From contig JAOAIH010000017.1 in the NCBI GenBank assembly GCA_026414805.1, forward strand, positions 1 to 49,476: a DNA stretch of 49,476 nucleotides, written 5' to 3'. Made by a program: the position numbers and the translations under genes. The DNA comes from Spirochaetota bacterium. GTDB taxonomy: Bacteria > Spirochaetota > UBA4802 > UB4802. Below the pieces are notes generated by a model. It ran no database searches. It was not told where the DNA came from and saw only the letters and a list, made by a program, of their open reading frames with translations. Of the stretch, positions 1-45,667 are shown one piece after another (position 1 is the stretch's first letter; the number at the start of each line of letters is the position of its first letter).

Positions 1-433
1 ATTTTATTCTTTGGCCTTCTATAAGGGTTTGAGTTAGTACATTTTTTCCTTTGATATCAGCTACGTACAAAATATGAGGTATGGATTTGTATCCGGGTTT
101 TAAAATAAAAATTGTAATGAGTATTCCTACAATAAGGATGGAGAAGGTAAAAGCAATACTGCGCCGGTATGTTTGGACAAAGTTGGAAATAGTATTCTTA
201 AATGTTTTTTTATCGTAATATTGCAGTTGACTTGAATAATAATGCAAAATGGATGATAATACATCCTTGGAGGGTTCAACGGGTTTTTGGGGGGCGATAG
301 CAACCTTAATTAGTCTTAATTTTTTTAAACAAATATCGCACTTTTCAATATGAAGCAAGGCTTTTCTTGCCTCATCTTTATCAAGACTGTTTTTTACCAG
401 GGCTAGTAATGTGAGTTCATTGAGATGCTTCAT
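1..433 (-). CDS. Anti-sigma factor with zinc-binding ZAS motif, membrane-anchored (C-terminus cut by window edge)
   Basis: Reading the minus strand from ATG at 433 gives 144 codons open to the window edge. An H-x3-C-x2-C motif (H28, C32, C35) matches the zinc-binding anti-sigma (ZAS) signature. One hydrophobic segment (about residues 93-111) is a single membrane span, and the sequence after it (about 124-144) looks like the start of a FecR-type periplasmic domain. The gene lies 59 nt downstream of an ECF sigma gene on the same strand, the usual order for a sigma / anti-sigma pair. By family knowledge it would hold the sigma factor at the inner face of the membrane until an envelope signal arrives. 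An AAGGGG ribosome binding site sits about 12 nt before the ATG. The signal sensed is unknown. Confidence 0.75.
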   Translation of the reverse strand, partial: MKHLNELTLLALVKNSLDKDEARKALLHIEKCDICLKKLRLIKVAIAPQKPVEPSKDVLSSILHYYSSQLQYYDKKTFKNTISNFVQTYRRSIAFTFSILIVGILITIFILKPGYKSIPHILYVADIKGKNVLTQTLIEGQRIK

Positions 434-492
434 AGCATATATTTACCCCTTAATTATATTACAATTATATCATAAAAATTGGTCATTAAAAG

Positions 493-1008
493 CTATAAAT
501 TTTCGTAAAATCCCTTATTTTTTAAATATGAAACTATATGGATTACTGTAGATTGTAATTTACGACGAACTGTCCGTTCAGATATTTGAAGTAATTTTGC
601 AATTTCTTCATTTGAATAGTTGTTCTCTCTTTTTAAAATAAAAATTGAGCGGCTGATTGGATCAAGTTCTTTCAGGGCATTTGCAACTTCTTGCTGTATT
701 TCCTGAAATAATAAGTCATTTTCGACAGTATCATTTGATATTACATAAGGGCTATCTTCTTCAAAACTATCTGTTCTTACATTTTTTTTAAGATAGTTAA
801 TAGATAAATTATGAGCAGATGTATATAATAATGATTTTACTGTATTGGGATTAATATCAGTTTTTTTTGAGTATTCAATTAAATTAATAAATGTATCCTG
901 CAAAATATCTTCCGCCGATTCATATGAACCAATAAGGTGATAAATATAATTGAAAATTTCTTTGTAATATGTTGTATATAATGAAATAAGTTCTTCTTTT
1001 GAAATCAT
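493..1008 (-). CDS. ECF-type RNA polymerase sigma factor
   Basis: 171 aa, the usual size for a two-domain sigma-70 ECF factor. Region 2 spans about residues 7-75, with the acidic region 2.2 segment YESAEDILQDTF. Region 4 spans about residues 115-155, with a helix-turn-helix of the form NEEIAKLLQISERTVRRKL. There is no region 1 or 3. It is followed on the same strand by the anti-sigma factor at 1-433, so the two are probably co-transcribed and the sigma factor is held inactive by its neighbour. It is divergent from the Lys/Glu-rich secreted protein at 1129, which is a plausible target gene, but no promoter motif proves this. No clear Shine-Dalgarno sequence precedes the ATG. Confidence 0.9.
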   Translation of the reverse strand: MISKEELISLYTTYYKEIFNYIYHLIGSYESAEDILQDTFINLIEYSKKTDINPNTVKSLLYTSAHNLSINYLKKNVRTDSFEEDSPYVISNDTVENDLLFQEIQQEVANALKELDPISRSIFILKRENNYSNEEIAKLLQISERTVRRKLQSTVIHIVSYLKNKGFYENL

Positions 1009-1067
1009 ATTTTTTTTATAAAAAAATGTCCGTTTTTTATATTATGGATTGTATTATACTTCAAAGA

Positions 1068-1093
1068 GTTGATAATAAATAAATTTTATCAAC
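1068..1093 (+). promoter_or_regulatory. Inverted repeat in the leader of the Lys/Glu-rich secreted protein gene
   Basis: GTTGATAA (1068-1075) pairs perfectly with TTATCAAC (1086-1093) across a 10-nt AT-rich spacer. It lies between two divergent genes, just after a TATACT hexamer (1055-1060) that could serve as a -10 box, although no good -35 box is visible. It could be an operator or a short RNA hairpin. Confidence 0.35.
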
Positions 1094-1128
1094 AAAAAAT
1101 TTTTAAATAACTCTATTAGGAGGGTTGT

Positions 1129-1350
1129 ATGAAAAAGTTGTTAGCTACATTAGTATCACTGCTTTTTGCTGCAGCTGTATTTGCTCAGGCTCCAGCACAG
1201 AAGGAAGCTCCAAAAGCTGCTGAGCAGCCAAAAAAAGTTGAAGCAAAGAAAGAAGAAAAGAAAGAAGTAAAAGCTCAGAAGAAAGAAGCAAAAGAAGTAA
1301 AGAAAGAAGAAAAGAAAGAAGTAAAGGAACAGAAGGGTGCTGCAAAGTAA
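1129..1350 (+). CDS. Small secreted Lys/Glu/Ala-rich protein
   Basis: 73 aa behind a strong AGGAGGG ribosome binding site. Residues 1-20 form a classic signal peptide (KK, then a hydrophobic core, then AFA-Q), so the mature protein should be exported to the periplasm or beyond. The mature part is almost entirely K, E, A, Q and V and contains the unit KKEEKKEVK(A/E)QK twice, giving a highly charged, probably helical or disordered chain. A strong terminator follows directly, so the gene is a single-gene unit, probably well expressed. The purine-rich repetitive coding DNA throws long open frames on the opposite strand, which are shadows. No family is recognised; a role in envelope stress or charge buffering would be a guess. 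Confidence 0.75.
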   Translation: MKKLLATLVSLLFAAAVFAQAPAQKEAPKAAEQPKKVEAKKEEKKEVKAQKKEAKEVKKEEKKEVKEQKGAAK

Positions 1351-1375
1351 CAACCCCATTAATTTAAATCATAAT

Positions 1376-1410: not shown

Positions 1411-1459
1411 AATAGTGTAAAAAAATATAATTAATTTAAAAATAAAAATTTTTCACAAA

Positions 1460-2448: not shown

Positions 2449-2547
2449 CAAAATATACTTGATGTTTTAAAAATAATTTTTGCGATAGTAATAAATAGTA
2501 ATAAATATATATAGAAATAAGAAATATTTAGTATTCAGGAGCTATCG

Positions 2548-3444
2548 GTGCTTGAGCAGAAAATCGAAAAATTAAAAAAGCAAAAAAAAGCAATTATACT
2601 TGCCCATAATTATCAAAATCCCCAAGTTCAGGATATTGCTGATTACACCGGTGATTCTTTAGAGCTGTCAAAGATAGCAGCAAACAACGATGCAGAGATT
2701 ATTATTTTCTGCGGTGTTCATTTTATGGCAGAATCAGCATATATACTATCGCCCCAAAAAAAAGTTATTTTGCCTGATATAACAGCTGGATGCCCCATGG
2801 CTGATATGGCACAAGTTGAAGATGTTATTGAAATGAAAAATAGGTATCCTGAAGCAGCAGTTGTAACATATATTAATTCTTCAGCAGATGTGAAAGCAAT
2901 GTCGGATATATGTGTTACATCTTCAAATGCAGTTAATATCGTCAATAAACTCAGGAGTGAAACAATAATTTTTATACCCGATAGGAACTTGGCACAGTAT
3001 GTTCAACGATTCACATCAAAAAAAATAATCCCATGGAAGGGATTTTGTCCAACTCACGATCGTTTTACAAAAGAAGAATTGATTGCAGTTAAGCAAAGAT
3101 ATCCTGATGCTTTTGTAATTGTTCATCCTGAATGCAGGCCAGAAATAATTGATATGGCAGATATGACTTTGTCAACCGGACAGATGGTCAAAAATGTGAA
3201 TACGATAAAAAATAATGAAATAATAATTGGTACAGAAGAAGGCATGCTTCATAAATTAAAAAAAATTGCTCCTCAGAAAGAATTTATTCTTGCTTCAAAA
3301 AGTTTTATATGCCCAAATATGAAAAAGATTACTTTGGAAAAAATTTTCAAAGCTTTATCAGAAGAACAGCCTATAGTCACAGTTGAAGAAAATATCAGGA
3401 TAAAGGCTTTGACAGCATTACAGCGAATGTTAGATCTATCCTGA
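2548..3444 (+). CDS. nadA: Quinolinate synthase NadA
   Basis: 298 aa, the compact form of the family. NadA condenses iminoaspartate with dihydroxyacetone phosphate to quinolinate in de novo NAD synthesis, using an oxygen-sensitive 4Fe-4S cluster. The three expected cluster cysteines are C82 (AGCPMAD), C167 (GFCPTH) and C255 (FICPNM). The N-terminal LAHNYQNPQVQDIADYTGDS motif is typical. The start is a GTG placed 6 nt after AGGAG; a one-base variant of the dispersed GCGATAG word lies between the ribosome binding site and the start. No nadB or nadC is adjacent, so the rest of the pathway lies elsewhere. The downstream gene at 3448 follows by 3 nt and may be co-transcribed. Confidence 0.97.
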   Translation: MLEQKIEKLKKQKKAIILAHNYQNPQVQDIADYTGDSLELSKIAANNDAEIIIFCGVHFMAESAYILSPQKKVILPDITAGCPMADMAQVEDVIEMKNRYPEAAVVTYINSSADVKAMSDICVTSSNAVNIVNKLRSETIIFIPDRNLAQYVQRFTSKKIIPWKGFCPTHDRFTKEELIAVKQRYPDAFVIVHPECRPEIIDMADMTLSTGQMVKNVNTIKNNEIIIGTEEGMLHKLKKIAPQKEFILASKSFICPNMKKITLEKIFKALSEEQPIVTVEENIRIKALTALQRMLDLS

Positions 3445-3447
3445 TTT

Positions 3448-4686: not shown

Positions 4687-5544
4687 ATGTTGGTAAAAAT
4701 AGAGCAAATAAAAAAAGTTTTAGAGAATAATCCAGGTTGTGTGTTGAAATATTTACAAAACTATACTGTAAAAGGGAAAACCTATCATGAATTAGACCAA
4801 ATATTTGTTGATGATTTATATAGGTTTGAGCAAGCTGGCATAGAAACAGTTGATATAAAATATGATGAGATAGTTTATAGTTTATTGTCTACACTATATC
4901 CTGTTGAATACCGTATACCGTACGCCTGGGCTGATTTTATTACCTTTGACCGTAAATTGGAGACCTTAGAAAGGGTTAGTACATTGACAAAACGAAAACG
5001 TTATTTAATCTGTGTAGGTGATATTTACTCTTACGATCAACATACTGGTAAAAGAGTTACTATTTTCAGACATAACGATGCAATAGATTATAAACGGTGG
5101 AATCAAGTGAAACGTCTTCTTGACAAGAATAAGCGCATATACTACAGGAATTCAGAAAATGGTATTATTATTTTTGTTAATCTCCAACCACATGCGGAAT
5201 CAAGTTATATTGAGCGATTTAAAAAAAATACTGATCTAGTAAGTGCGATAGTTGCTCGTAAAAAAGATTGTAAAATAGAAATATCACCTGATTTTATACC
5301 AACTGAAGATGTCTACACTATAAATGATCCAAAAGACCTTTTAAAATTTTATCAGCAATCTAATGCACGACTAATAATTATTGGCGAAACATTAAATGAT
5401 GATTATAGAAAAGCATTATTGCAGGTAAAGGAATATGATAAATTTGCAAGAATGATGGTGGTACCCAATCTTGATTTGAGAAATATTGACCATTTTTTAT
5501 TACAAGTAAAAATGGTATATAATGCAGATAGGTGGACAGAGTGA
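4687..5544 (+). CDS. Conserved-looking hypothetical protein, first of a pair
   Basis: 285 aa, no signal peptide or membrane span, basic and mixed alpha/beta in pattern. The C-terminal segment from about residue 200 (DLLKFYQQSNARLIIIGE onward) alternates like a small Rossmann-type or receiver-like alpha/beta unit, but it lacks a recognisable nucleotide or phosphoacceptor motif. It sits 15 nt upstream of the 5560 gene on the same strand, so the two are very likely co-transcribed and functionally linked. No good ribosome binding site is seen before the ATG. No family recognised. Confidence 0.6.
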   Translation: MLVKIEQIKKVLENNPGCVLKYLQNYTVKGKTYHELDQIFVDDLYRFEQAGIETVDIKYDEIVYSLLSTLYPVEYRIPYAWADFITFDRKLETLERVSTLTKRKRYLICVGDIYSYDQHTGKRVTIFRHNDAIDYKRWNQVKRLLDKNKRIYYRNSENGIIIFVNLQPHAESSYIERFKKNTDLVSAIVARKKDCKIEISPDFIPTEDVYTINDPKDLLKFYQQSNARLIIIGETLNDDYRKALLQVKEYDKFARMMVVPNLDLRNIDHFLLQVKMVYNADRWTE

Positions 5545-9239: not shown

Positions 9240-9692
9240 TTAGTATGCCCTGTGTGTTTGCAGTTCAATTATTTTATTAATTTCATTTATATTTTTTATA
9301 AGTGATTCTTCATGATTTGTCAGCAAAATAATAAGTGTTTGATTAAGATTGTAAATACGTGATATAGATGAATGTATTTCCCTTAAAAGGTCAGAGATCA
9401 ATGTGCAGGCGGGATTATTGATTTTTAGAATCATGTCTTCAAATTGTGTGTATTCAATACCAATTTTTGACGTGATTTCAGTAATACAACTGGCAATAGA
9501 GTAATTACATAAAGAGATGTCTTCAATAATTGCATTATTGACTGATATGATAGTAACTATCGCTTCTTCATTTCCGTTTATTAAATTTAGCTGTATAGTT
9601 TGAAGGTTTACCTCAAACTTTTTTAAAAGCATTTGCTTGGTTGAAAGTAAATTATACAACGTATGAAGAAGTGTTACTATATCATCCCTCAA
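9240..9692 (-). CDS. FlgN-like flagellar export chaperone (tentative)
   Basis: About 150 aa if read from TTG at 9692. A longer open frame reaches 9767 but would overlap fliS by 86 nt. The TTG start overlaps the fliS stop by 11 nt, typical of coupled genes. The protein is a nearly all-helical, coiled-coil-prone chain (LLHTLYNLLSTKQMLLKKFEVNLQTIQLNL and further helices), as expected for FlgN/FlgN-like proteins that escort hook-filament junction proteins to the export gate. Position immediately after fliS supports a flagellar role. Sequence identity to FlgN is not obvious, so this is inference from shape and context. A GCGATAGT copy lies inside the gene at 9557. Confidence 0.5.
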   Translation of the reverse strand: MRDDIVTLLHTLYNLLSTKQMLLKKFEVNLQTIQLNLINGNEEAIVTIISVNNAIIEDISLCNYSIASCITEITSKIGIEYTQFEDMILKINNPACTLISDLLREIHSSISRIYNLNQTLIILLTNHEESLIKNINEINKIIELQTHRAY

Positions 9693-11095: not shown

Positions 11096-11145
11096 AATTT
11101 TTCCTTTCTAAATTTATATTTGGCGATAGCTCATTATAATGACTA

Positions 11146-12972: not shown

Positions 12973-14289
12973 ATGAAATGTATATATAACATAAAGACAG
13001 TAAATTCAATTGTTTTCAATTTTTTGGTTTTAATAATATTTGGTATTCTACCCACCCAGGCTGGATCTGAAACTATAGATTTCATCAAAGCTCAAAATAT
13101 ACTTTTGGTGCATAATATGAAATTAAAGGCAATGCAGCTTCAGGTTGAACAAAGTAAAAAAAAGATATCTATAGAATCATCATTGCCTGATCCCGCAATA
13201 AAGCTGGGTATAAACAATGTTCCAGTTGATACACCATCTTTCAATGAATCAGATATGACAAGCAAAGAAATTGGTGTATATCAAATGATTCCTTTATTTG
13301 GGAAGTTATCCACAAAAGAACGAATTGCATACCTTGAATATAAAAAAGCTCTGGAGACTTACAGGCTATATCAGGCATATTATCTACATTTAATGCGCTC
13401 ATATTTTTTTGAAATTGTATATTTTAAAGAATACCTCAAAATTATAGAAGAAACAAAGCAGTATCTTGCTCTGCTGATAGATATTCAGAAATCAAGAAGT
13501 ACAACAGGGATTTCCTCATTATCGGATATTCTTAAAATAAGTGTCGAATCATCAAAATTGGATGAAGAGATAATAACTGTCAATGCTTCTATTGCTGAAA
13601 TGCAAAACAATATCGCATATCTTTTAGGAACAGATAGTAACCGTAATATTGAATACAATATAAAAAATATTAATTTTTATCTGGTAAAAATCCAGAACCA
13701 AATTGAAAGTGATCAAGTTTTAGCCAATAATCCTGAATTACAGTTACTATCGCTCCAGATTCTAATTGATGAAGAAGGAGTAAAACTAAAACAGAAAGAC
13801 CTGTACCCAGATGTGGAAGTAGGAATTGCCTATATGCAGCGAGATAAAACTCCACAAGGAACAAGCCGTGATGATATGTTCACTGTTATGGCAACGTTTA
13901 ACATACCTGCCTGGTTTACCAGTAAAAACATACCTTCTATTCAAGAGATGAAAATAAAAAAAGGAGAATCAGAAGCGTTACATAAGGATAAACAAAATGA
14001 ATTAACGTTTGCACTTAACACATTATCACAGAATATAAAAAAGTGGGGGCAACTACACCAACTATATTCCAATCAAATCATTCCACAGCTGAATGCCATG
14101 CTCCAAGCTGATATTGCCTATTATAGAGCAGGGAATATTGAATTCATGAAGCTTGTAGATACAATACGTATGCGTTTGAACTACAAACTTCAATTGCTGA
14201 ATACTATCAAAGAATATTGTAAGGCGATTTCTTTTTTGCATTTTATGCAAGGTGATATCTCTGTAATGGATTGGGAAGGTATGCAATGA
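12973..14289 (+). CDS. TolC/CusC-type outer-membrane efflux protein
   Basis: 438 aa with an N-terminal export signal (about residues 1-30). It has the long helical hairpin repeats of the outer-membrane efflux family, including the conserved SSLPDPAIKLG and YQMIPLFGKLSTKERIA segments, the latter typical of the heavy-metal branch. It forms the outer-membrane channel of a tripartite pump with the next two genes and overlaps the adaptor gene by 4 nt (ATGA). No lipoprotein cysteine is evident after the signal. A clear ribosome binding site is lacking. Regulation is probably through the dyad immediately upstream. Confidence 0.88.
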   Translation: MKCIYNIKTVNSIVFNFLVLIIFGILPTQAGSETIDFIKAQNILLVHNMKLKAMQLQVEQSKKKISIESSLPDPAIKLGINNVPVDTPSFNESDMTSKEIGVYQMIPLFGKLSTKERIAYLEYKKALETYRLYQAYYLHLMRSYFFEIVYFKEYLKIIEETKQYLALLIDIQKSRSTTGISSLSDILKISVESSKLDEEIITVNASIAEMQNNIAYLLGTDSNRNIEYNIKNINFYLVKIQNQIESDQVLANNPELQLLSLQILIDEEGVKLKQKDLYPDVEVGIAYMQRDKTPQGTSRDDMFTVMATFNIPAWFTSKNIPSIQEMKIKKGESEALHKDKQNELTFALNTLSQNIKKWGQLHQLYSNQIIPQLNAMLQADIAYYRAGNIEFMKLVDTIRMRLNYKLQLLNTIKEYCKAISFLHFMQGDISVMDWEGMQ

Positions 14290-15542: not shown

Positions 15543-15567
15543 GGCACGTCAACGGTAACTATCGCAT

Positions 15568-18500
15568 ATGATAAACAAAATTATTACATTTTCTATCCAC
15601 AACAAATTACTGGTGTTGATTTTCTTTTTATTATTAATAGTATATGCAATATACGCAATCAATAACATCCCACTTGATGCTATTCCAGATTTGTCAGATA
15701 CCCAGGTGATAATTTATACAAAGTGGGATCAGAGCCCACAGATAGTTGAAGCTCAAGTAACGTATCCAATAATTTCAGCGCTGTTAGGTGCACCAAAGGT
15801 TAAGACAATTCGTGGCTTCAGCGATTATGGATTTTCATATATATATGTCATTTTTGAAGATGGCACTGATATATATTGGGCACGCAGCAGGGTTGTGGAA
15901 TACCTTTCCAAATTACAGGGGACATTGCCCAAGGATATAAAAATGGAAATTGGACCTGATGCTACGGGTGTTGGATGGATATTTCAGTATGTGTTAATTG
16001 ACAAAAGTGGTGCCTATGACCTTTCACAACTAAGAACTCTTCAAGATTGGTATATTAAATATTCATTACAGTCGGTTAATGGCGTTGCCGAAGTTGCCAC
16101 CATTGGTGGGTTTGAAAAACAATTTCAGATTTCCATTGATCCAAATAAATTGTACCTCTACAATGTTACTTTATTTGATGTGATTGAAGCAATAAGAAGA
16201 AGCACCAATGAAATCAGTGGCAGGTTTTTGGAATTATCGGGCAAAGAATATATGGTGCGTGCCGAAGGGTATATTCAAAACATTAGTGCTCTGAAAAAGG
16301 TTGTAGTTAAAACTACTGGTTCCACACCTGTATTTCTTGAAAATGTAGCTGATGTTTCAATTGGACCAATGTTGCGGAGAGGAATTGCTGATTATAATGG
16401 GCAGGGTGAGGTAGTTGGTGGCATTATTGTCATGCGGCATAAAGAAAATGCTTTGAATGTCATCAATGCAGTCAAAGAAAAGTTAAAAGAAGTAGAACAC
16501 GGTCTTCCAGAAGGGGTGGCGATAGTTCCTGTATATGACAGGTCTGGCTTAATTAAGCAATCCATTGCAACATTAACCGACGCATTGATTAAAGAAGTAA
16601 TCGTTGTCAGCTTAGTGATACTCATTTTTCTATGGCATATTCCCTCAGCTTTTGTGCCAATCATCACCATTCCTATTTCGGTTGTACTTGCATTTATCCC
16701 CATGTACTTTATGAAAATAACCTCCAATATAATGAGTTTAACAGGAATTGCGATTTCAATTGGTGTTCTGGTTGATGGTGCAATTATAGAGGTAGAAAAT
16801 GCATATAAAAAAATTGAGCACTGGATTGCCAACGGTAAACAGGGCAATTACCATGATGTTCGAAAAGAAGCTCTGCTAGAAGTTGGACCTTCAGTGTTTT
16901 TTTCTTTATTAGTAATTACAGTGGCATTTTTACCCATTTTTACATTAGTAGATCAGGAAGGTCGTCTTTTTACACCGTTAGCATGGACAAAAACGTTGAC
17001 AATGGCACTTGCAGCGATACTGGCAATAACATTAGACCCGGTAATCAGGATGCTTTTTACACGTTTGGAACCATTCAAACTTAAATCTACAATTTTGTCG
17101 TACATTTTTACTACATTATTTGTTGGCACATATTACTCTGAAGAAAAACATCCAATAAGCAAGTTCCTTTTCAAATTCTATACTCCCGCCTGCAGGTTTG
17201 TACTGCAATACCCAAAACAGGTAATTGTAGGCTCGGTGCTTCTGTTTATATTGTCGGTCCCGGTATTTGTTTTATTAGGTTCTGAATTTATGCCGCCTCT
17301 AAATGAAGGTACTATTCTTTATATGCCAACTACGTTACCTGGGATATCACTTACTCAGGCAAAAAAACTGTTAACATATCAGGATAAAATACTCCTATCA
17401 TTTCCTGAGGTTGATGCAGTTTTTGGAAAAGCGGGAAGGGCTGAAACCTCTACAGATCCTGCACCCCTCTCAATGATAGAAACAACTATTGTATTAAAAC
17501 CAAAGGAGCAATGGAGGCAAGTAAATAGATGGTATTCAAGTTGGGCTCCAGAATGGTTAAAGAATCTTTTACGGATACTTTGGGATGATAGGATCAGTTA
17601 TGAACAATTGATTAAGGAAATGGATGCTGCCTTGAAAATTCCCGGAGTGACCAATGCCTGGACAATGCCAATAAAGGGGCGTATTGATATGTTGACAACT
17701 GGTATAAGAACGCCTATTGGAATAAAAATACTTGGTTCTGATGTTAATACTATAGAACAAATTGGCAAAAAGATTGAAGAGATTTTGCAAAAACTTGAAG
17801 GAACACGAAGTGTGTATGCTGAACGAGCTTCGGGAGGATATTATGTTACCATTGAACCTGATAGAGAAAAAATGGCGCGATATGGCTTAAAGCTTGAAGA
17901 TGTGCAAATGATAGTGGCAACAGCCATAGGTGGACAAACAATAACTGAAACGATAGTTAATTCACGTGAACGGTATACAATTAATATACGATATCACAGA
18001 GATTTCAGGGATAATATTGATGTATTGAAGAGAGTAGTAATACCAACACCTAATGGATATAATGTACTGTTGCAGGAAGTTGCTGACATAAAACTGTCAT
18101 ATGGCCCTTCTATGATAAGAAATGAAAATGGCATGATAGCAGGGTATGTATTTGTTGATATTAATGATACAGATGTAGGAAAATATGTTGAAAGAGCAAA
18201 ACAAATAGTCTATTCATCAATCAGCATTCCTGCAGGTTATACGATAACATTTAGTGGACAATATGAAAACATGTTACGAGTAAAGCAACGATTATTAATT
18301 ATATTACCTGTTACATTGATATTAATACTATTAATTTTATATATTAATACAAAAAGTATTTTTAAGACTTTTGTGATATTGTTGGCTGTTCCTTTTTCAT
18401 TGATTGGTGCTGTGTGGTTATTGTATATTCTTGATTATAATGTATCGATTGCTACATGGGTTGGTATGATTGCACTGATGGGTCTGGATGCAGAAACAGG

Positions 18501-26240: not shown

Positions 26241-27608
26241 ATGCATAATATTCAAAATAAGAACTTTACTGAAGACACTTACCTTGAAAGAGGTTTGGGA
26301 TTACCCGCAGCAATTTCTATTGTAATAAGCCGTATAATTGGTTCAGGAATTTTTAGGACTCCAGGCCCTATCATGGCGCTTGTTGGATCTACATTTCTAT
26401 TTGGCAGCGTGTGGATTATAGGAGCAGTTATCACAATTTTTGCTGCAGTATGCTATGCAGAGCTAGTGGCAATGATGCCTCGATCAGGAGGCCCCTATAT
26501 ATATCTAAAAGAAGCGTATGGACCATTGATTGCTTTTTTACGTGGGTGGGCCATGTTCTTTGTTTCTGAAACAGGAGCTATCGCCGCAGTTGCATTAGTT
26601 TTTGCTGAATATTCGCAGGCATCAATTAGTATAGCGTTAGGTATTAATCTTACTCATACAGTTGTGGTCATTATCGCATTACTGGTGATTGCTTTTCATA
26701 CTTTCATCAATTGTTTTGGTGTTAAACTCAGTGGGGTTGTACAGATTATTTTAACTTCAACCAAAATAATAGCGCTGGGATTTATTATAATAGCTAGTTT
26801 TACAAAAAATGGTAATTTTAGTAATTTTTATACTCCTCTTTTTCCTGAACAATTTACTGTTACGCATATTCTAGGAATTGGTGCAGCACTACGGTATGCC
26901 TTCTTTGCATTCAGTGGGTGGGAGGGTGCAACGTATGTGGCTGAAGAAGTAAAAAATCCCAGAAAAAATCTGCCATTATCTCTGTTAATTGGAATACTGT
27001 GTGTCCTTATTCTTTATATGAGTGCCAATGCTGCTTATCTTTATCAGGTTCCGGTGAAGGAATTTGCTCTTTCAAAATGGATAGCAGTTGATGCTCTTAA
27101 GCAAGCTTTAGGAACTGCAGGTGCCTTGCTTGTGGCATATGCAGTAATGATAAATACCTTTGGTAATGTGGGTACTCAGGTTATGGTTAAAGCGCGGACT
27201 TGGCATGCAATGGCACAGGATAATTTATTTTTTTCGTGGTGTTCGATAGTTCATAAAAAATATAAAACTCCTAATAATGCAATGATCATACAAGGACTAT
27301 GGGCGTGTGTATTGGTTCTATTTGCTTCCATGTATAAAAATTCCTATGAGGCAGTAATTGATTATTTTTCTGCAACTGGAACTATTTTCAATATTTTAAC
27401 ATTAGCCAGTGTTATTATCCTGCGTAAAAAATATCCTGACGCTACAAGGCCTTTTAAAACATGGGGTTATCCATTTACTGTACTTATTGTGGTAGTTTTT
27501 TATATTATATATTTAATTGTCACACTTATTACCGCATTTATTCCTTCTTTATTGGGTATACTATTGACATCAACTGGATTACTCTATTATTGGTTAAAGA
27601 TTAAATGA
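26241..27608 (+). CDS. APC-family amino acid permease
   Basis: 455 aa with about 12 membrane spans. The first span carries VISRIIGSGIFRTPG, the GSGIF motif that forms the substrate carboxylate site in APC transporters; PRSGGPYIYLKEAYGP follows, as in LAT/AdiC-like members. It likely imports or exchanges an amino acid at the inner membrane; the substrate is not readable. It follows the TusA-DUF3343 gene by 5 nt, so a sulfur or selenium amino acid is a possible substrate, but this is inference. A GGAGCTATCGC word lies in it at 26574-26584. Confidence 0.92.
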   Translation: MHNIQNKNFTEDTYLERGLGLPAAISIVISRIIGSGIFRTPGPIMALVGSTFLFGSVWIIGAVITIFAAVCYAELVAMMPRSGGPYIYLKEAYGPLIAFLRGWAMFFVSETGAIAAVALVFAEYSQASISIALGINLTHTVVVIIALLVIAFHTFINCFGVKLSGVVQIILTSTKIIALGFIIIASFTKNGNFSNFYTPLFPEQFTVTHILGIGAALRYAFFAFSGWEGATYVAEEVKNPRKNLPLSLLIGILCVLILYMSANAAYLYQVPVKEFALSKWIAVDALKQALGTAGALLVAYAVMINTFGNVGTQVMVKARTWHAMAQDNLFFSWCSIVHKKYKTPNNAMIIQGLWACVLVLFASMYKNSYEAVIDYFSATGTIFNILTLASVIILRKKYPDATRPFKTWGYPFTVLIVVVFYIIYLIVTLITAFIPSLLGILLTSTGLLYYWLKIK

Positions 27609-27703: not shown

Positions 27704-28834
27704 GTGCGTAAAGTTTTCTTTCTTATTGTTTTACTATCGCTATTACATTTAACATTACTGTATGCAAATACAGAACATAAAGACAGTGTGGGTGGTGAGC
27801 CATTACAGGATATAGTTGTAATCAGTCAAAATGACTGGCTTATAATACCACATCTTTACTATAAACCTGAAACACAATTTGCTTATGGAGTGGTGTTTTT
27901 GACATATTTTCAGGATATAATAATGAGTATTCCACCAATAAAATTACGGCCAACAACATTAGCGGTAACATTTACCCATACACAAAATGACCAGTTTATA
28001 TTTCAGGTTTTTCCTGAGTTCTATTTTTTAAGAGATAGATATCATATAAAAAATGAGTTCCAGTATATGAATTATCCTGATAAATTTTATGGGATAGGTC
28101 AGGAAACCACGGATGACAATAAAGAGTCGTATACCTCAAGGATATTTTCATTTAAGAATATTATTGAGCGCGCACTTATTCCCGGATTTTATATCGGATT
28201 ACTGTATCATATTGATGTCCGTAAAACAACTCAAGCTGAGGAAGGGGGGGTAATTGATACAAATCAGGTACCAGGATCAGATAAAGGTCGTGTATCTGGG
28301 CTTGGGATCACAGTTAATTTTGACAATAGGGATGATATATTGTTCACTCGTGATGGAAGCTATGCCAATCTCACAATTACTCAATATTCTAAATATATTA
28401 AAAGCGACTTTGATTACATTGATGTGACCTTTGACTATCGATTCTTTGAGCCTTTTTGGTTTTCACATGTTCTTGCTGTGCAATTCTTTTCAGGTTATAT
28501 TCATGGGCAAGCTCCATTTTATTTGCTGTCTCAAATGGGTGGGGCTAAACTGATGCGAGGACTATATGAAGGGAGGTTCAGGGATCGTAATGTCGTAGTT
28601 GTTCAAGCGGAATACCGTGTTCCCCTGTTCTGGAGGTTTAGTGGTTGCGGTTTTGGTGGTGCAGGTCAGGTTGCTCCAACATTACGGGATTTTAATAAAA
28701 AGCATATAGTGTATACATGGGGTGGTGGTTTACGGTTCAAAATTAAGAAGGAACAGAGTCTCAATATACGTCTTGATGTAGGATTTAGTAAAAACTTTTA
28801 CGGTGTATATGTGACAATTGGCGAAGCAATATAA
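27704..28834 (+). CDS. Omp85-superfamily outer-membrane protein (BamA C-terminal-like barrel)
   Basis: 376 aa from GTG at 27704, 7 nt after AGGAG. It has a signal peptide (about residues 1-20, cleavage near LYA-N). No POTRA repeats are seen; the chain is a 16-strand-type barrel of the bacterial surface antigen family, with the typical internal motif VNFDNRDDILFTRDGSY and the later LMRGLYEGRFRDRN, which carries the conserved (V/I)RGY-type RG motif of Omp85 barrels. Such short members may insert or move lipids or proteins; function is open. Confidence 0.8.
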   Translation: MRKVFFLIVLLSLLHLTLLYANTEHKDSVGGEPLQDIVVISQNDWLIIPHLYYKPETQFAYGVVFLTYFQDIIMSIPPIKLRPTTLAVTFTHTQNDQFIFQVFPEFYFLRDRYHIKNEFQYMNYPDKFYGIGQETTDDNKESYTSRIFSFKNIIERALIPGFYIGLLYHIDVRKTTQAEEGGVIDTNQVPGSDKGRVSGLGITVNFDNRDDILFTRDGSYANLTITQYSKYIKSDFDYIDVTFDYRFFEPFWFSHVLAVQFFSGYIHGQAPFYLLSQMGGAKLMRGLYEGRFRDRNVVVVQAEYRVPLFWRFSGCGFGGAGQVAPTLRDFNKKHIVYTWGGGLRFKIKKEQSLNIRLDVGFSKNFYGVYVTIGEAI

Positions 28835-30041: not shown

Positions 30042-31430
30042 ATGGACAATGCATATATAAATACTATACTCCTTAAACTATGGAAACAAAGCAGATTCAC
30101 ATCATACTTTTATCATGCAGTTGAGTTTGTAACAACAAATTCAATACCTACCTTATCATTGGTAGCCTCACATAGAATGGTGTTATACTATAATCCTGTC
30201 TTTTTACATACAGTTACTGAAGATGAATTCCTGGGCCTTCTTGTGCATGAAATGTTGCATGTAATTCTTGAACATGACCATAGGGCAAAATCGGGAGATG
30301 TGGTTTTGCAAAATATAGCGCAGGATATGGTGGTGAATACATTTATCCACAATCATAAAAAAATATTTTTTTCCCGTAAGGGCCAATATCAATGGGATGT
30401 GCCTGTACTCACTCTTCCGCAGGGATTACCTGTCATTCCACTTGAATTTTATAATGCCACTGGCATACAGGATCCAGTATGGGAAGATGTATACAGATGG
30501 CTTATGAAAAAGCAGAGTGAAATAACAGTTATTAACTATCATGGCCAAATAGAAAAACAAAAGTCATTGTTTCATGATGATATGTATGCGATAGCTCATA
30601 ATAATAACGAGCAGTCTGAAAATGAATTCAATTACAAAAATTATCTTTCACATTCTTCCGTAGATGATGAAAAGTTAATAGTACAGGATGAAAATTCATA
30701 TTTACCAACAGGTGTTCATTACTTTACCCAGGACGAAGCAGCACGGCGTTCAATCAAAAATAAAATTATTTCCCATGCAAAAAAAGATGAATGGTGTACT
30801 GTAGAACGCTCATACATGGATATAGTTGCACTACTTGAAAAAATTAATCTATGCGATAGCTCATATTATGCCCAACACATTAAAAGTATTGTTGATTATA
30901 TGTCACATTCAAATGAGTGGTATTACACACATTCTCGTTTTAATAGAAGATATGTTGCAAACGGTATATATATAGCGGGAAGAGCATACAAGCAGAGTGA
31001 AATCATAACAGTAGCTATTGATATTTCAGCATCAATGATGGCTCAGAGAGAAGATCTTGAGATTGCATTTGGAATCATAGAGGACTTAACTGATAAATAT
31101 AAAATATATCTGGTGTGTGTAGATGAAGAATATTTTATCCCGGTCAAGGAGGGGGATGTTTTTATACGGTCAAATATGTCAGCAAAACCTTATGAATACA
31201 AAAGAGGCGATTGGAAGTTAATAAAATCAGGGTATGGAGGTGCAACATTTTTTTCTTCTTTTTTTAATGAATATTTAAGAGGGCATAAAGAAATGGTAAT
31301 TGTTATTACCGATGGATATATATATGATATAGATAAATTAAAGCCATACCCCAATACATTATGGCTCATAACAAAGAGCAGAAATGAATATTTTGTAGCT
31401 CCATTTGGTAAGGCAATAAGCATCCTATGA
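30042..31430 (+). CDS. DUF2201-like metallopeptidase domain fused to a VWA-like domain
   Basis: 462 aa. The N-terminal half has a zinc-protease motif, LLVHEMLHVILEH (H69, E70, H73 and a following H78), typical of DUF2201_N putative metallopeptidases. The C-terminal half is VWA-like with an intact MIDAS pattern: DISAS near residue 327, a Thr in GGATFFSSF, and the later VITDGY. A Lys/Asp-rich linker (about 180-260) joins them. It is bracketed by a MoxR ATPase (5 nt before) and a repeat protein (4-nt overlap). By analogy with MoxR-VWA pairs, the ATPase likely remodels a target that the VWA half recruits. Two GCGATAGCTCATA words occur in it (30588 and 30853). Confidence 0.88.
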   Translation: MDNAYINTILLKLWKQSRFTSYFYHAVEFVTTNSIPTLSLVASHRMVLYYNPVFLHTVTEDEFLGLLVHEMLHVILEHDHRAKSGDVVLQNIAQDMVVNTFIHNHKKIFFSRKGQYQWDVPVLTLPQGLPVIPLEFYNATGIQDPVWEDVYRWLMKKQSEITVINYHGQIEKQKSLFHDDMYAIAHNNNEQSENEFNYKNYLSHSSVDDEKLIVQDENSYLPTGVHYFTQDEAARRSIKNKIISHAKKDEWCTVERSYMDIVALLEKINLCDSSYYAQHIKSIVDYMSHSNEWYYTHSRFNRRYVANGIYIAGRAYKQSEIITVAIDISASMMAQREDLEIAFGIIEDLTDKYKIYLVCVDEEYFIPVKEGDVFIRSNMSAKPYEYKRGDWKLIKSGYGGATFFSSFFNEYLRGHKEMVIVITDGYIYDIDKLKPYPNTLWLITKSRNEYFVAPFGKAISIL

Positions 31431-32306: not shown

Positions 32307-33347
32307 ATGAAAAAAAAGATTATAGTCATAGTTGTATGTGCTATTTTGGTTATTGCATTTATTATTAAGACCTTATATGATGCAGGTGAATTTAAAAAAA
32401 TAGTTCCATATTCTAATTATTATTGTACAACGGTAACTTCAATACCTGGACCTGAAGATATAGTAATCGATTATGAATTAGGAATTGCATATATATCTTC
32501 TGATGATAGAAGAGCTTTTGCAAAGGGACAAAATATAAATGGTTCCATATTTTCTTATAATTTAAAATCCAAAAAATTAACTAAGTTAAATTCTGATTTC
32601 CCATACGAATTCCATCCTCATGGAATAGATCTGATAACTATCGCAAAAAACAAAAAACTACTTTATGTTGTTAATCATAGAACATCTGGTCATTTTATAG
32701 AAAAGTTTTATATCCGTGAAAATAATCTTACATACGTCCGTTCAATTGAGAATCAGGACCTAATGTTTTCACCTAATGATCTTGCCCTCATTAATGAAGA
32801 TATTTTCTATGTCACTAATGATCATGGGAATAGATCATCCCTGGGAAAAACTATTGAAGAGTATCTCCAGCTAGCCAATTCGTATGTACTTTTTTATGAT
32901 GGAAAAAATTTTGACATAAAAGCCAGAAATATTAAATATGCTAACGGTATAACATTTAGCCCTGACAAATCAAAGCTATTTGTTGCATCACCTGTTGGTA
33001 AATGCATTAAAGTATATACGATTGAAAAAGCTTATAATTTAACATTTTTATATGACATAGATTGTAATACAGGAGTTGATAATATAACTTTTGATAGTGA
33101 GGGTGCATTATGGGGTGGTTGCCATCCAAAGTTATTGACTTTTGTTAAACATTCAAAAAATGAACATGCTATGGCTCCTTCAGAAATAATTAAAATTAGC
33201 TTTGATGGTAATAAATACAAAAAAGTAACGGAATTATTGGATGATGGTAATTTGATACAATCTTCAACAGTTGCAGTACGATACAATTCATCACTATTAA
33301 TTGGCTCAGTATTTGATACTCACATTCTTGATTGTACATCTAAATAG
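32307..33347 (+). CDS. Paraoxonase/arylesterase-like lactonase
   Basis: 346 aa with an N-terminal membrane segment (about residues 4-22), so anchored or exported. It follows paraoxonase (PON) blocks closely. Calcium/active-site motifs are present in order: GPEDI (as GSED), FHPHGI (the catalytic-His motif FNPHG), VVNH, SPNDL, YVTNDHG, YANGI and VDNITFD. PONs hydrolyse lactones and arylesters in a six-bladed propeller with two Ca ions. Strong AGGGGAGG ribosome binding site. It lies 9 nt before an alpha-galactosidase gene, so the pair is probably an operon; a sugar-lactone substrate is possible. Confidence 0.85.
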   Translation: MKKKIIVIVVCAILVIAFIIKTLYDAGEFKKIVPYSNYYCTTVTSIPGPEDIVIDYELGIAYISSDDRRAFAKGQNINGSIFSYNLKSKKLTKLNSDFPYEFHPHGIDLITIAKNKKLLYVVNHRTSGHFIEKFYIRENNLTYVRSIENQDLMFSPNDLALINEDIFYVTNDHGNRSSLGKTIEEYLQLANSYVLFYDGKNFDIKARNIKYANGITFSPDKSKLFVASPVGKCIKVYTIEKAYNLTFLYDIDCNTGVDNITFDSEGALWGGCHPKLLTFVKHSKNEHAMAPSEIIKISFDGNKYKKVTELLDDGNLIQSSTVAVRYNSSLLIGSVFDTHILDCTSK

Positions 33348-38583: not shown

Positions 38584-39732
38584 ATGGATAAACAGATATT
38601 ACAGCAGCTTGAAGGATATGAAAAAGTTATAACTGATATAGAAGTTCTTAAGCGTTATGGCTATGATTATAGATTAGACAGAGGCCTTGTTAAAAAATTT
38701 GTAGACCGATTGCATCCTCAGATAATAGATGTTAAAGTGATTGATGTTATAGATGAAACTAAATCAACAAAAACTCTGCGTCTTGCGTCAAAACAAAAGT
38801 ATTTACCACCATTTCAGGCAGGTCAATATATTTCGGTGATAGTTGAAGTTGGAGGAATTAGAACAACGCGGCCATACAGTATATCATCGTCACCCGATGA
38901 GATTGCATATTACGATATCACAGTGCGCCGAGTGGATGGGGGTTTAGTATCGTCGTACTTGCTTGACACAATAAAAATTGGCGATAGTTTGCAAATATCA
39001 GCCCCTGCCGGCAATTTTTATCATAATCCAATTATTCACAGCAACAAGGTGGTATATATTGCTGGTGGCAGTGGTGTAACACCGTTTAAGTCCATGATAC
39101 AACATGTCATAAATACTGGTACTGAAAGGGAAATATGGCTTATATATGGAAGCAAAAACAACGATGAGCTCATTTTTAATGATTATTTTTCAAAAGTTGC
39201 TTCAAAGTATTCATTTTTTCACTATATCCCAGTGCTGGAAGAAGGTAAAAGCGTTTACAAAGGTTTAATAACCTCAAAAATCATTACGGAAGTTGTGGGC
39301 GATAGCTCCGATAAAACATTCTTTGTTTGTGGCCCTCAGGCAATGTATGCACATATACTGAATGAATTACAGCCGATGAACTTAAAACCAAAGCAGATAC
39401 GGATGGAAATGTATGGAGTTCCAACTGATGTTTTTTCGCAGCCTGGATGGCCAAAAGAAATTAAAAAAGATGCTTCATTTACTATTACAGTAAGAGGCAG
39501 AATCACTTTTACTGTTTTGGCAGGGGAAACTTTATTACAGTCACTTGAAAAAAATGGTGTTATAGTACCATCGTTGTGCCGAAGCGGCGAATGCAGCCTG
39601 TGCCGGATAAAATTAGTCAGCGGTAAAGTATATCAGCCCGAAGGTGTTAAACTAAGGCAGGCCGACAGACGGTTTGGATATATTCATTCCTGTGCAGCAT
39701 TCCCTATCAGTGATTGTGAGATAATAATTTAG
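38584..39732 (+). CDS. FAD/NAD(P)H ferredoxin-reductase with C-terminal 2Fe-2S ferredoxin domain
   Basis: 382 aa from ATG at 38584, set by AGGAGG 6 nt upstream; a longer frame to 38542 overlaps the previous gene. Order: FAD-binding domain (RPYSISSSPDE, the RxYS motif), NAD-binding domain (VYIAGGSGVTPFKSMI and FVCGPQAMY), and a plant-type 2Fe-2S domain with CRSGECSLC plus a distal Cys (SCAAF). This is the phthalate/vanillate-reductase-like or CDP-6-deoxy-type electron-transfer design. It likely moves electrons from NAD(P)H to the CrtI-like partner or an oxygenase. Two GCGATAG copies occur in it (38981, 39299). Confidence 0.9.
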   Translation: MDKQILQQLEGYEKVITDIEVLKRYGYDYRLDRGLVKKFVDRLHPQIIDVKVIDVIDETKSTKTLRLASKQKYLPPFQAGQYISVIVEVGGIRTTRPYSISSSPDEIAYYDITVRRVDGGLVSSYLLDTIKIGDSLQISAPAGNFYHNPIIHSNKVVYIAGGSGVTPFKSMIQHVINTGTEREIWLIYGSKNNDELIFNDYFSKVASKYSFFHYIPVLEEGKSVYKGLITSKIITEVVGDSSDKTFFVCGPQAMYAHILNELQPMNLKPKQIRMEMYGVPTDVFSQPGWPKEIKKDASFTITVRGRITFTVLAGETLLQSLEKNGVIVPSLCRSGECSLCRIKLVSGKVYQPEGVKLRQADRRFGYIHSCAAFPISDCEIII

Positions 39733-40924: not shown

Positions 40925-41485
40925 CTATGTTAGTAAAGGTAACAGCTTTTTCTTGATGGCTTCAGCTATTAAAAAATGGCCCTGTTCATTAGGGTAGCGA
41001 TCATCAATAGTTAATAATGAATCAATACTGTTACCGGTTTCATAGAGATAGTTAATCCATTCTATGTGTACGGTTGCAAGCAAGCAATTCATATCCAGAG
41101 CAACTTCACGCGCTGTACGTGTAAATACATCAACTGCGTCCATATCATACTGGTTTTTTACCAGATGCAATGTTGGCAGGATGATATGTGGTATACTAAC
41201 AGCGCGTGCTTTCTGTACCATGCGTACAAGGTTTTCTTTAAATTCTGAACGGTACACTGGCCTATAAATATCGTCCATTCCAAAGTGCAATATAAGAATA
41301 TCTGGTTTATGCAATATTACATTATCAAACTGCCATACTCCCTCAAAGGAGCTATCGCCAATTTTTGATATGTTGATAATTTTATGCTGTTTGATTACTT
41401 CATCATTTGAAAGCATATCTATATACGAAGTTTTAACCCTATACCCGGCAGATATTGAACCTCCACGTACACATATAATAGCCAT
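40925..41485 (-). CDS. SGNH/GDSL-fold hydrolase-like protein with altered catalytic residues
   Basis: About 186 aa from ATG at 41485 (GGAAA just before); a GTG at 41512 would add 9 residues. It matches the SGNH fold by block order but with changes: block I reads GGS where GDS is usual (Ser kept), block III reads GMDD where GxND is usual, and block V reads DDRYPNEQGH, with Tyr where the catalytic His is expected. The Asp of block V is kept. Activity is therefore doubtful or altered. It is convergent with the NMO/FabK-like gene and has no signal peptide. A CTGGCGATAGCTCC-type word (41349-41358) encodes part of the block II region. Confidence 0.7.
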   Translation of the reverse strand: MAIICVRGGSISAGYRVKTSYIDMLSNDEVIKQHKIINISKIGDSSFEGVWQFDNVILHKPDILILHFGMDDIYRPVYRSEFKENLVRMVQKARAVSIPHIILPTLHLVKNQYDMDAVDVFTRTAREVALDMNCLLATVHIEWINYLYETGNSIDSLLTIDDRYPNEQGHFLIAEAIKKKLLPLLT

Positions 41486-41661: not shown

Positions 41662-42582
41662 ATGAAGAAAATTGGTGTTATTGTTAATCTTAATTCAAGA
41701 AAATATAAACTATCAAATAAACATCCCGAAGGAATTTTTGAAAATATTGGGGGCGATAGCATTGTTGTCAAATATACAAAGTCAATTGATGAACTGTATG
41801 ACGTTGCTGTGGATTTCAAAAAAATGGGAATTGATTATGTAGCACCTTCAGGCGGGGATGGAACATTACATCATGTTGTAACGCAATTTGCAAAAATTTA
41901 TGGAGCAAATTTACCTCCATTTATAATATTAAAGGGAGGTACAATGAATAATGTAGCTAATAGCATCAATCTAAAAGGTGATGCAGAATCCATATTACAA
42001 AGAGCTGTTGTAGCTATAAACAATGAAAAAGACATAAAAATAGTACAACGTAAAACAATGAAGATTGAGGATAATCATTGTTTTTTGTTTGGGAATGGGC
42101 TAGTATCAGATTTCCTTGATACATATTATTCAATTGGCAAAAGTTATACTAAATTGATAGGATTAATATGTAGCAGTATTTATGAGGCATTCACTAACCA
42201 GAATTCAAATCTGTTCAAAGGGTTTGATGGCAATATCACGTGTGATTCTGAAGTATTACCATATACAAATGTATTGGGTGTACTTGGGGGAACTATTGAA
42301 ACAATTGGAATGGGGTTTTATCCTTTATACAGGGCTAATGAATCAAAGGATGCATTTCATATTATAGTATGTGCAATGAAGCCAAGGGATCTTGCAAAGA
42401 ATGTTATTAAACTAAAAAATGGTACTCCTATTAAACATAAGGATTATATTGAAAAAATTGTTAAAACCATAGATATACAATCAAAAAAACCTTTCATGTA
42501 CACCATGGATGGTGATCTTTATAATTCAGAAGGTGCATTAAAGGTTTCAACTGGCATTCCTATCCAATTTGTAGTTGTTTAG
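41662..42582 (+). CDS. Diacylglycerol kinase-like lipid kinase (YegS/DAGK catalytic family)
   Basis: 306 aa, normal family length. Motifs: [10 protein letters not shown] near the N-terminus, the nucleotide-binding [11 protein letters not shown] and [12 protein letters not shown] (GGT[MT]N motif with NN in place of the usual ND). A C-terminal MDGD motif ([12 protein letters not shown]) is also typical. It would phosphorylate a lipid alcohol such as diacylglycerol, or a sphingoid base, at the membrane; substrate unknown. The stop codon overlaps the convergent DAHP synthase by 4 nt. Confidence 0.88.
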
Positions 42583-43656: not shown

Positions 43657-43839
43657 GAGTGATGTTTTCATATCAAACAAATTCATGCTTTAATTGTTAT
43701 AAATCAATAATTAAATAATGTTAATCATGTCAAGAAAAAAATTATAGTTTTTTTAATAATTAAATTATTGTATCATTTTTAATAATCGTATAAAAATAAA
43801 AAAATTTAAATTGAATGCATATATTTTGTTCTTTAATAA

Positions 43840-43868
43840 TTGACATTTTAATAATATTTTTATATATT
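43840..43868 (+). promoter_or_regulatory. Sigma-70 promoter for the queH operon
   Basis: A perfect TTGACA (43840-43845), a 17-nt spacer and TATATT (43863-43868), within a very AT-rich stretch. The next ATG is at 43943. Confidence 0.65.
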
Positions 43869-43942
43869 TAATAGAAATATTATAACTTTATTAAATTTTA
43901 ATTATAATTATTACATCTTGCCATGGTACAAGAGGAATAACA

Positions 43943-44299
43943 ATGAAGAAGAAAAACAAGGCTTCTTTTGGAGTAAATGGTTGGTATTTATCCCCTTCTG
44001 ACAATATTTGTTTGGCTAAATGTATTTTTGATGAACCTTACCGTGAAGAAATTAAAGAGATTAACAAGCACGAAATTATTGTGAAAATTGCTGAATGTAT
44101 TGGTCCAGAACCTTCAAATCTTTGTATTGCAGAAGAAATTTTTGAAAAGCTAAAATTTGAAATTGCAAACTTTGTTATCCACCACGAATACAATTGCACC
44201 CGTGGTGTGAATGCAGATCTTCTGTTATGGCTTGATGGCAAGGTAAATCCTGCAAAGTTAAAAAAGCTGAATAATTTCATAGATAAGTATCTTAAGTGA
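43943..44299 (+). CDS. Small hypothetical protein upstream of queH
   Basis: 118 aa, soluble, no signal or membrane segment, with an AGAGGAAT site before the ATG. It is Lys/Glu/Ile-rich with two His in HHEYNC (about residues 85-90) and three Cys. The GTGA overlap with queH (4 nt) shows coupled translation, so a link to tRNA queuosine modification or to a shared regulation is plausible. The family is not recognised. Confidence 0.65.
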   Translation: MKKKNKASFGVNGWYLSPSDNICLAKCIFDEPYREEIKEINKHEIIVKIAECIGPEPSNLCIAEEIFEKLKFEIANFVIHHEYNCTRGVNADLLLWLDGKVNPAKLKKLNNFIDKYLK

Positions 44300-44913
44300 A
44301 CAGCAAACGGTTCCCAAAATTGTTACTCCATACATGCTGTGGACCGTGTCTCACGCATGTATATGAAGTATTATCACAACAATTTAATGTTCATGTTTTC
44401 TATTACAATCCAAATATAGCACCACGGTCAGAATACCAACTACGATTGCGTGAAGTTGAACAATTTTCCAGCTACAATTCAATACCAGTAACTATCGGTA
44501 ACTATAATCAAAAAGATTGGTTTAATACGGTAAAACCATACCGCATGTATGGTGAGATGTCGCAGAGATGTTTTGCTTGCTATGATTTTCGATTGAGGGA
44601 AACTTTTAAAGTAGCAAAGGAAAATAAATTTGATGCTGTATGCACCACATTAACAGTAAGCCCTTATAAGGATGCAGAGAGAATTAATGAAATAGGCATC
44701 AACCTGTCAAAATTGTACGAAATAAAGTTTATATCAAAAGATTTTAAGTCTGATGGCGGATACCAGCAGTCCATTGAATTATCTAAAAAATATGGAATGT
44801 ACAGACAAAAGTATTGTGGATGTATTTATTCAAAGCTTGAAAGAAAAAAGTCATCATTGTGGTCTATTAAAGTCAAAAAATTTAAAGAATCAATGCATCA
44901 TTCATATAAATAA
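44296..44913 (+). CDS. queH: Epoxyqueuosine reductase QueH
   Basis: 205 aa. QueH (DUF208) reduces epoxyqueuosine to queuosine in tRNA with a 4Fe-4S cluster and a second metal, replacing QueG. Motifs: LLLHTCCGPC (about residues 10-19), the pair RCFACY, and QKYCGCIYS; the paired cysteines in each are conserved. The GTG start overlaps the previous stop. No other que genes are in the window. Confidence 0.93.
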   Translation: MNSKRFPKLLLHTCCGPCLTHVYEVLSQQFNVHVFYYNPNIAPRSEYQLRLREVEQFSSYNSIPVTIGNYNQKDWFNTVKPYRMYGEMSQRCFACYDFRLRETFKVAKENKFDAVCTTLTVSPYKDAERINEIGINLSKLYEIKFISKDFKSDGGYQQSIELSKKYGMYRQKYCGCIYSKLERKKSSLWSIKVKKFKESMHHSYK

Positions 44914-45055
44914 GTTGGCGCTAAAAATGCACTCAATTAAATAGTTTATAGTAGGGCAGTAGATTATAATTTATATTATTGATTAGAAATTCTATAAAGA
45001 CAGTATTGCATAACAATAATAATTTTCTACACAGCGTTATTACAATGGTGTTAGT

Positions 45056-45667
45056 ATGGATATTAAAGAAAATTATTATGAGCTTTTTCCACAGTTGAAT
45101 GATATTGTCATTTTGTATCAGGAAGTAGAAGCAATAATCAATAACATTAAATCTTCATTTTCAATTTTCTGTCCACATGGCTGTGGTACCTGTTGTGATA
45201 CATCCATTGAAAATATTGAAGCTTCAATAGTAGAAATGTTGCCGCTTTGCATACATATCTATGAACAACACAATTACCAGTTGTGGCTGGATAAAGCAAA
45301 TGAAAAGCAATGCATTTTTTATGATACAAGCCCTCTCAAAAAAAGTTCAGGATGCTGTATGGTATATACTTACAGACCACTAGTATGCCGTTTATTTGGC
45401 TTTAGTTTTACAAAAAATAAATATGGGGCGATAGTTCCTGTGGCATGCTCTATTCTACAAAAACAATATAAAGATAAGAGTAATTTTATTGCAATTGCCA
45501 AAGATTCTTTACCCATGATGAGCTCTTTTTCATTGCAGTCAATAATGATAGACACAGTAAGAAGTGATAGATACCCAATAAATGAGGCTTTTGTTAAAGC
45601 GATGGAGTATGTGGTGTTGAAAATAAGTTTAACAGTGAATGATTCAAATTATAATAAAATTGCTTAA
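45056..45667 (+). CDS. YkgJ-type cysteine-cluster protein
   Basis: 203 aa. An N-terminal cluster CPHGCGTCC (about residues 40-48) with further Cys residues in CIFYD, CCMVYTYRPLVCRLFGF and VACS matches the YkgJ (zinc or iron chelating, Fe-S cluster-like) family pattern in spacing. It may bind an Fe-S cluster or zinc; the biological role is unknown. A GGGGCGATAGTTCC word lies inside it (45425-45438), encoding the residues GAIVP. Confidence 0.75.
   Translation: MDIKENYYELFPQLNDIVILYQEVEAIINNIKSSFSIFCPHGCGTCCDTSIENIEASIVEMLPLCIHIYEQHNYQLWLDKANEKQCIFYDTSPLKKSSGCCMVYTYRPLVCRLFGFSFTKNKYGAIVPVACSILQKQYKDKSNFIAIAKDSLPMMSSFSLQSIMIDTVRSDRYPINEAFVKAMEYVVLKISLTVNDSNYNKIA

Follow-up and report, generated by a model that had tools for sequence, protein, structure and literature searches.

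The seven-base word GCGATAG is repeated throughout a 49,476-bp stretch (33% G+C; below, the window) of contig C17 from the draft genome of an uncultured Spirochaetota bacterium, and in the genus of this bacterium it is probably a previously undescribed, one-directional signal for the repair or exchange of DNA with about 1,500 copies per genome. The word is kept by selection at the DNA level, and from the spacing of its copies it appears to be read in one direction over about 2 kb, with each strand served independently. The identity that we tentatively favour, with a confidence somewhat short of even, is a Chi-type control site of the RecBCD enzyme of this genus, i.e. a directional and strand-specific signal for homologous recombination. 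The mode of working, as a directional signal for recombination or exchange, is better supported than this identity, and membership among either the Chi sites or the DNA uptake sequences (DUS) is unproven. A literature search gave no relevant description of the word among the titles listed, in agreement with the first-pass annotation of the window, which knew of none.

The genomes of the host and its relatives are drafts assembled from metagenomes of uncultured organisms, those of the genus being 93-99% complete. The species of the window (G000) has a draft of 3.24 Mb in 186 contigs, and four other species of the same genus (G001 to G004) were used for comparison. Detailed analyses were carried out on stretches of G000 totalling 1.23 Mb, which is 38% of the genome, and an earlier subset covered 449 kb.

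Abundance and conservation of GCGATAG

The first-pass annotation had counted 23 copies of GCGATAG or its complement CTATCGC in the window against about 3 expected by chance, eight of them with the full 10-mer GCGATAGCTC. A recount agrees, with 13 copies on the forward and 10 on the reverse strand, starting at positions from 294 to 45428, and 8 of the 23 carrying GCGATAGCTC. An order-3 Markov model of the 449 kb gives 3.2 copies per window, i.e. 28.9 expected in the subset where 184 were found. The excess is not confined to one contig or one gene family, as the whole G000 genome holds 1,588 copies, 791 forward and 797 reverse, compared with 298 (147 and 151) of the reversed control word; the earlier statement that copies lie on both strands thus extends to the genome. 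Nor are the counts near the Markov expectation when more sequence is used: in the 1.23 Mb the word ranks first among all 7-mers, with 565 copies vs 86 expected under the same model (z 51.7). The 10-mer GCGATAGCTC occurs 73 times in the 449 kb where 0.36 are expected, an excess of about 200-fold. Neighbours with one mismatch are also in excess in the 1.23 Mb (e.g. GAGATAG 3.6-fold, TCGATAG 3.7-fold). The density is one copy per 2.1 kb, or about 4.2 kb per orientation.

Most copies are located in genes. Outside open reading frames (ORFs) there are 13 of the 184 copies in the 449 kb, which matches the 8% of non-coding DNA and upholds the earlier view that there is no strong intergenic bias. The strands are balanced (92+/92- in 449 kb and 272+/293- in 1.23 Mb). 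The orientation of the word shows no gene-strand bias in the 449 kb, is unrelated to contig GC skew in the 1.23 Mb, and has no polarity along 220 kb of contiguous DNA. FtsK-orienting polar sequences (KOPS) are short asymmetric words like the present one; the absence of polarity by strand, by GC skew and along the 220 kb sets GCGATAG apart from them, as had been proposed from the window. Only the high copy number speaks for a KOPS-type or otherwise replication-polar marker, or for an artefact of codon usage, protein composition or mobile repeats, and the strand balance, the lack of gene-strand bias and of any relation to GC skew, the differing reading frames, the conserved codons (see below) and the unrelated flanks together make this explanation highly improbable. 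Mobile repeats were rejected as the source of the copies, since the flanking sequences are unrelated past about 20 bp. Gaps free of the word do not appear to be mobile DNA: the largest, of 15 kb, carries ORFs that resemble ordinary genes, as judged by eye with no family search made.

The word occurs in sense and antisense direction and in all frames that do not contain a stop codon, and its peptide readings differ accordingly (A-I-A/V, G-D-S, L-S, T/A-I-A). In syntenic DNA of the four relatives, which is 74-78% identical, the 7-mer was kept at 68-74% of the sites in three species and at 44% in the fourth, whereas syntenic 7-mers in general were kept at 19-20% in those three and at 13% in the fourth. 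At positions with an unchanged amino acid, the codon within the motif was kept in 102 of 114 cases (89%) vs 40% expected, and for the alanine codon GCG in 18 of 19 cases vs 16% expected. The z-score of this codon test, 12.6, overstates the independence of the comparisons, which share ancestry, and the effect is still large. Codon or peptide bias was therefore rejected as the cause, because frames and peptides vary and codons are conserved more strongly than the amino acids explain. The first-pass annotation had reached this conclusion from the varying peptides, and the comparison of orthologous with synonymous sites which it proposed gave conservation well above background in four relatives.

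The same word is present across the five species of the genus, the other four having 1,415-1,742 copies of GCGATAG each. The 16S fragment resembles that of a spirochaete, as judged by eye. The nearest match by RpoB (97% identical), the Spirochaetota metagenome-assembled genome A05DMB-I-13, has 5 copies vs 0.4 expected in a locus of 15.7 kb. In the sister genus (one genome, 71% complete) and in 24 other genera of the order, GCGATAG is at or near the level of the control. As the word is confined to the genus, it is a genus-level trait.

The alignment of copies shows a graded motif of approximately TTKGGCGATAGYTMCTGnnAA, which extends over about 17 bp and has GCGATAG as its core. It consists of about five T/G-rich bases, followed by G-GCGATAG-Y-T-C/A-C-T-G and then a weak A at +15/+16; the 3' extension of the word runs on as CTC or TTC. 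AT-rich shoulders flank the motif from about -12 to +20, giving a footprint of about 30 bp. The base composition in G000 is C 54%, T 39%, A 4% and G 3% at +7, and T 67% and A 20% at +8. The earlier observation of a pyrimidine after each copy, followed by A or T, is correct for the window and is only a strong preference genome-wide. Species dialects are found at +7, where G002 favours T (78 vs 16%) and G000 favours C (54 vs 39%), and CGATAGCTC has 703 copies in G000 vs 158-287 in the other four species. The sequence 5' of the word has no extended GT-rich stretch of the kind expected for RecA loading, the GT-richness being limited to the nearest 12 bp.

A resemblance to the highly iterated palindrome HIP1 of cyanobacteria (GCGATCGC) had also been suggested. 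HIP1 is likewise a very abundant octamer in genes and has similar letters, GCGATAGC being one base off GCGATCGC, and the density of the present word is high both in and outside genes. HIP1 is a palindrome, whereas GCGATAG is directional: it is non-palindromic, its 3' extension continues as CTC/TTC, and its orientation matters, as copies of like orientation are scarce within 2 kb of each other (see below). Furthermore, the palindrome GCGATCGC occurs 0 times in the window, and GCGATCG, the core of HIP1, shows no enrichment in the 1.23 Mb (12 copies vs 16 expected). We therefore consider it very improbable that the word is a HIP1-like palindromic or methylation-linked genome word.

Orientation-dependent spacing and a candidate Chi-type site

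Even spacing of all copies, hinted at by the 449 kb, was not supported in the 1.23 Mb (Kolmogorov-Smirnov p 0.69). The orientation of neighbouring copies is a different matter: 326 neighbours are opposite and 218 are in the same orientation (p 4e-6). The fraction of opposite neighbours, 0.599, is the highest among 400 frequency-matched 7-mers (mean 0.474, sd 0.034). This alternation arises because same-orientation pairs closer than 2 kb are scarce, with 159 pairs vs 219.6 +/- 10.0 in orientation shuffles (p 0.0005) and 260 under Poisson placement. Pairs in opposite orientation closer than 2 kb number 291, which is at or slightly above the expectation, and convergent pairs are as frequent as divergent ones. 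Close inverted pairs of the terminator type show no excess under 100 bp. The depletion of same-orientation pairs is replicated in G002 (37 vs 52.2 +/- 5.1, p 0.001), and three further species with smaller samples show the same direction (19 vs 23), not significant for the 7-mer. A depletion of same-orientation pairs without one of opposite pairs points to strand-specific reading over about 2 kb. As far as the literature search found, this same-strand spacing rule is an undescribed signature. It provides a purely genomic test of directional reading and of its range, which can be applied to genomes with DUS, uptake signal sequences (USS), Chi or HIP1.

A complete recC-recB-recD operon is found at L266:7209-16050, with scores of 813 bits for recC, 832 for recB and 473 for recD, all above the NCBIfam cut-offs, and each of the five species has recC. 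Taken together, strand-specific reading over a few kb, the lack of replication polarity and a host that encodes RecBCD lead us to favour a Chi-type site. RecBCD would enter at a DNA end and read the word on one strand only; at the word it would switch from degradation to RecA loading and so rescue the DNA beyond. Each copy would then cover some 2 kb of its strand, a further copy with the same orientation would be redundant because the enzyme presumably reads one strand while travelling from the end, and the other strand would need copies of its own. The conserved bases beyond the core may tune recognition or contact a larger complex.

Known Chi sites (GCTGGTGG in E. coli, GCTGGCGC in Pseudomonas syringae) are likewise short, asymmetric and over-represented words, thousands of bp apart, in hosts with recCBD, and GCGATAG falls in their range with its 7-base core and its density. 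Chi acts in one orientation only, and the same-orientation depletion under 2 kb would agree with such an action indirectly. The first-pass annotation had set Chi aside for lack of strand bias. Most Chi words do have a leading-strand bias, which is absent here (272+/293-, orientation unrelated to GC skew). In P. syringae, too, the proven Chi is free of strand bias, with 1119 vs 1122 copies and one per 3 kb (PMC5959072), so that strand balance does not exclude Chi.

Several observations weigh against a Chi-type site. The E. coli Chi, measured identically on 900 kb as a yardstick, is weakly over-represented (177 vs 117.5, rank 304 of the 8-mers), has no flank information (0.75 bit vs 0.62 in controls) and is strongly strand-biased (142 vs 35); it shows no same-strand depletion, a weak test as two thirds of its copies are chance background. 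GCGATAG is far more over-represented, has dialects and no leading-strand bias, and carries 4.0 bits outside the core vs a mean of 0.33 and a maximum of 0.85 in 60 frequency-matched control words. This flank information and the AT-rich shoulders suggest a protein that binds the double helix, as opposed to the reading of a strand inside a tunnel. Although RecC occurs throughout the order, this genus alone shows the word, and 20-kb samples of other genera gave no equally strong word. Finally, two species which share the word have RecC proteins of only 52% identity. The gene (L266:7209-10562) is on a long branch and evolves fast, the window DNA of the same species pair being 74% identical. If the Chi-type reading holds, the word predicts which sequence a spirochaete RecBCD recognises, and this is testable in vitro; no report of a Chi word for any spirochaete was found in the literature search.

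Copies in the window and side observations

In the following, a copy is called kept if the core GCGATAG is found at the syntenic site of a relative. The full word GCGATAGCTC is present at 11123..11129 (+; core kept in G001, G003 and G004), 23061..23067 (-; kept in 4/4 relatives), 24941..24947 (+) and 30588..30594 (+) (both kept in G001, G002 and G004), 26578..26584 (-; G001 and G003), 30853..30859 (+) and 41352..41358 (-) (both 4/4), and 39299..39305 (+; 4/4, each with T at +7). Two copies have the form GCGATAGC, one at 294..300 (+; kept in G003) and one at 41753..41759 (+; kept in 0/4).

The remaining copies have the form GCGATAGT. Those kept in G001, G003 and G004 are at 9557..9563 (-), 13747..13753 (-), 21822..21828 (-), 25184..25190 (+), 38981..38987 (+) and 45428..45434 (+). 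Copies at 2746..2752 (-) and 5245..5251 (+) are kept in G003, the one at 15559..15565 (-) in G002, and the one at 16519..16525 (+), within a gene of the AcrB family, in G002 and G003. The copy at 32638..32644 (-) is kept in 0/4 relatives, and 2482..2488 (+) and 27734..27740 (-) are recorded as word matches. The window also encodes, at 45755-48364, a fusion protein of CHASE2 and adenylate/guanylate cyclase of 869 aa.

Dialect words in other genera of the order were not found in the 20-kb samples, and the excesses that were considered were rejected. In G011 the excess of TCGCAAAG is due to a local 9-bp repeat, and that of CCTGTCG faded with more sequence; the excess in G018 looks like a repeat array. 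In G011 intergenic clusters of a degenerate 9-bp tandem repeat (TCGCAAAGT / CGCAGAG type) are located at L163:296-4100, and in G018 (L164) GTGGATTGAAAC occurs about 14 times within 20 kb, probably as an array of clustered regularly interspaced short palindromic repeats (CRISPR). A spirochaete metagenome genome has intergenic inverted repeats ending in GTAGGGGCGGCA at L041:15150-17300, possibly a small mobile element. A second, weaker word, TCAGGAT/ATCCTGA, has 482 copies vs 287 expected in the 1.23 Mb (e.g. L001-L020 and L270-L284), 184 vs 100 in G002, and 13 vs 3.4 in one 20-kb piece of G016, which belongs to another genus.

Comparison with uptake sequences and other DNA signals

The first-pass annotation had likened the word to DNA uptake sequences, for which competent cells would bind the word and import DNA that bears it, the copies being spread by biased transformation. 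In its strength, its dialects and its extended, duplex-like footprint the word does recall uptake sequences (PMC1626085, PMC2397512). Like the DUS of Neisseria and the USS of Pasteurellaceae, it is the top word of the genome, strongly over-represented as a 9-12 bp word in both orientations and balanced between the strands. It shares with them a core of about 10 bp in a graded, flanked motif, a halo of near matches and stringently conserved sites. The AT-rich shoulders also have their counterpart, as the USS has AT-rich motifs 3' of the core (PMC1626085).

A search for competence genes had been proposed as a check. ComEC is present in G001-G004 and was not found in the G000 draft, probably because of a gap in the draft. 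The genus has two proteins of the DprA family and a type II secretion system (T2SS) with pseudopilins and secretin. ComEC and DprA are near-universal, so they are no proof of an uptake sequence. In the drafts of the genus a PF00437 search found one GspE-type ATPase per genome and no PilT, and no canonical ComEA was found. The secretion genes are those of a T2SS and not of a type IV pilus. The operon at L265:2032-15844 encodes GspD, E, F, G, minor pseudopilins, K, a PilM-like protein and M; it continues into an ispH/lytB gene which, at 581 aa, is roughly double the normal length.

Only two proteobacterial families are known to have uptake sequences, which rely on type IV pili (PMC12616744), and the machinery of such pili (PilT/PilQ/ComEA, receptor pilin) is not seen here. 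They act regardless of orientation (PMC1939737) and would predict orientation-blind spacing, whereas the depletion found here is on the same strand only; there is no excess of close inverted pairs, and no competence is known in this lineage, which is of a different phylum. An uptake sequence in this genus would have no precedent beyond Neisseriaceae and Pasteurellaceae, and it would use an unusual route (e.g. the T2SS pseudopilus) and act per strand. We regard this explanation as somewhat unlikely.

The word may also be the target of an undescribed directional system that tracks along or binds DNA, its action covering about 2 kb of a single strand, such as a self-mark in defence or against recombination, a packaging signal of a gene transfer agent, or a nucleoid factor. 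The strand-autonomous spacing combined with a footprint of about 30 bp matches neither known class exactly, and the confinement to one genus would fit such a system. No candidate protein was identified, however, and restriction targets are normally avoided rather than enriched. Such a system seems unlikely to us.

A quite conceivable outcome, if still short of probable, is a new kind of strand-autonomous signal for DNA exchange, in which a duplex-bound word of about 17-30 bp would license one strand of about 2 kb for import or recombination and would be spread by biased recombination. Such a class would be distinct from Chi, for which the word is too strong, flanked and unpolarised, and from DUS/USS, as there is no type IV pilus and the action would be strand-specific. 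The word joins the strength of an uptake sequence to a directionality like that of Chi, which is a new combination, and a strong word in a different phylum, absent from the sister genus, provides a natural experiment on the origin of such signals.

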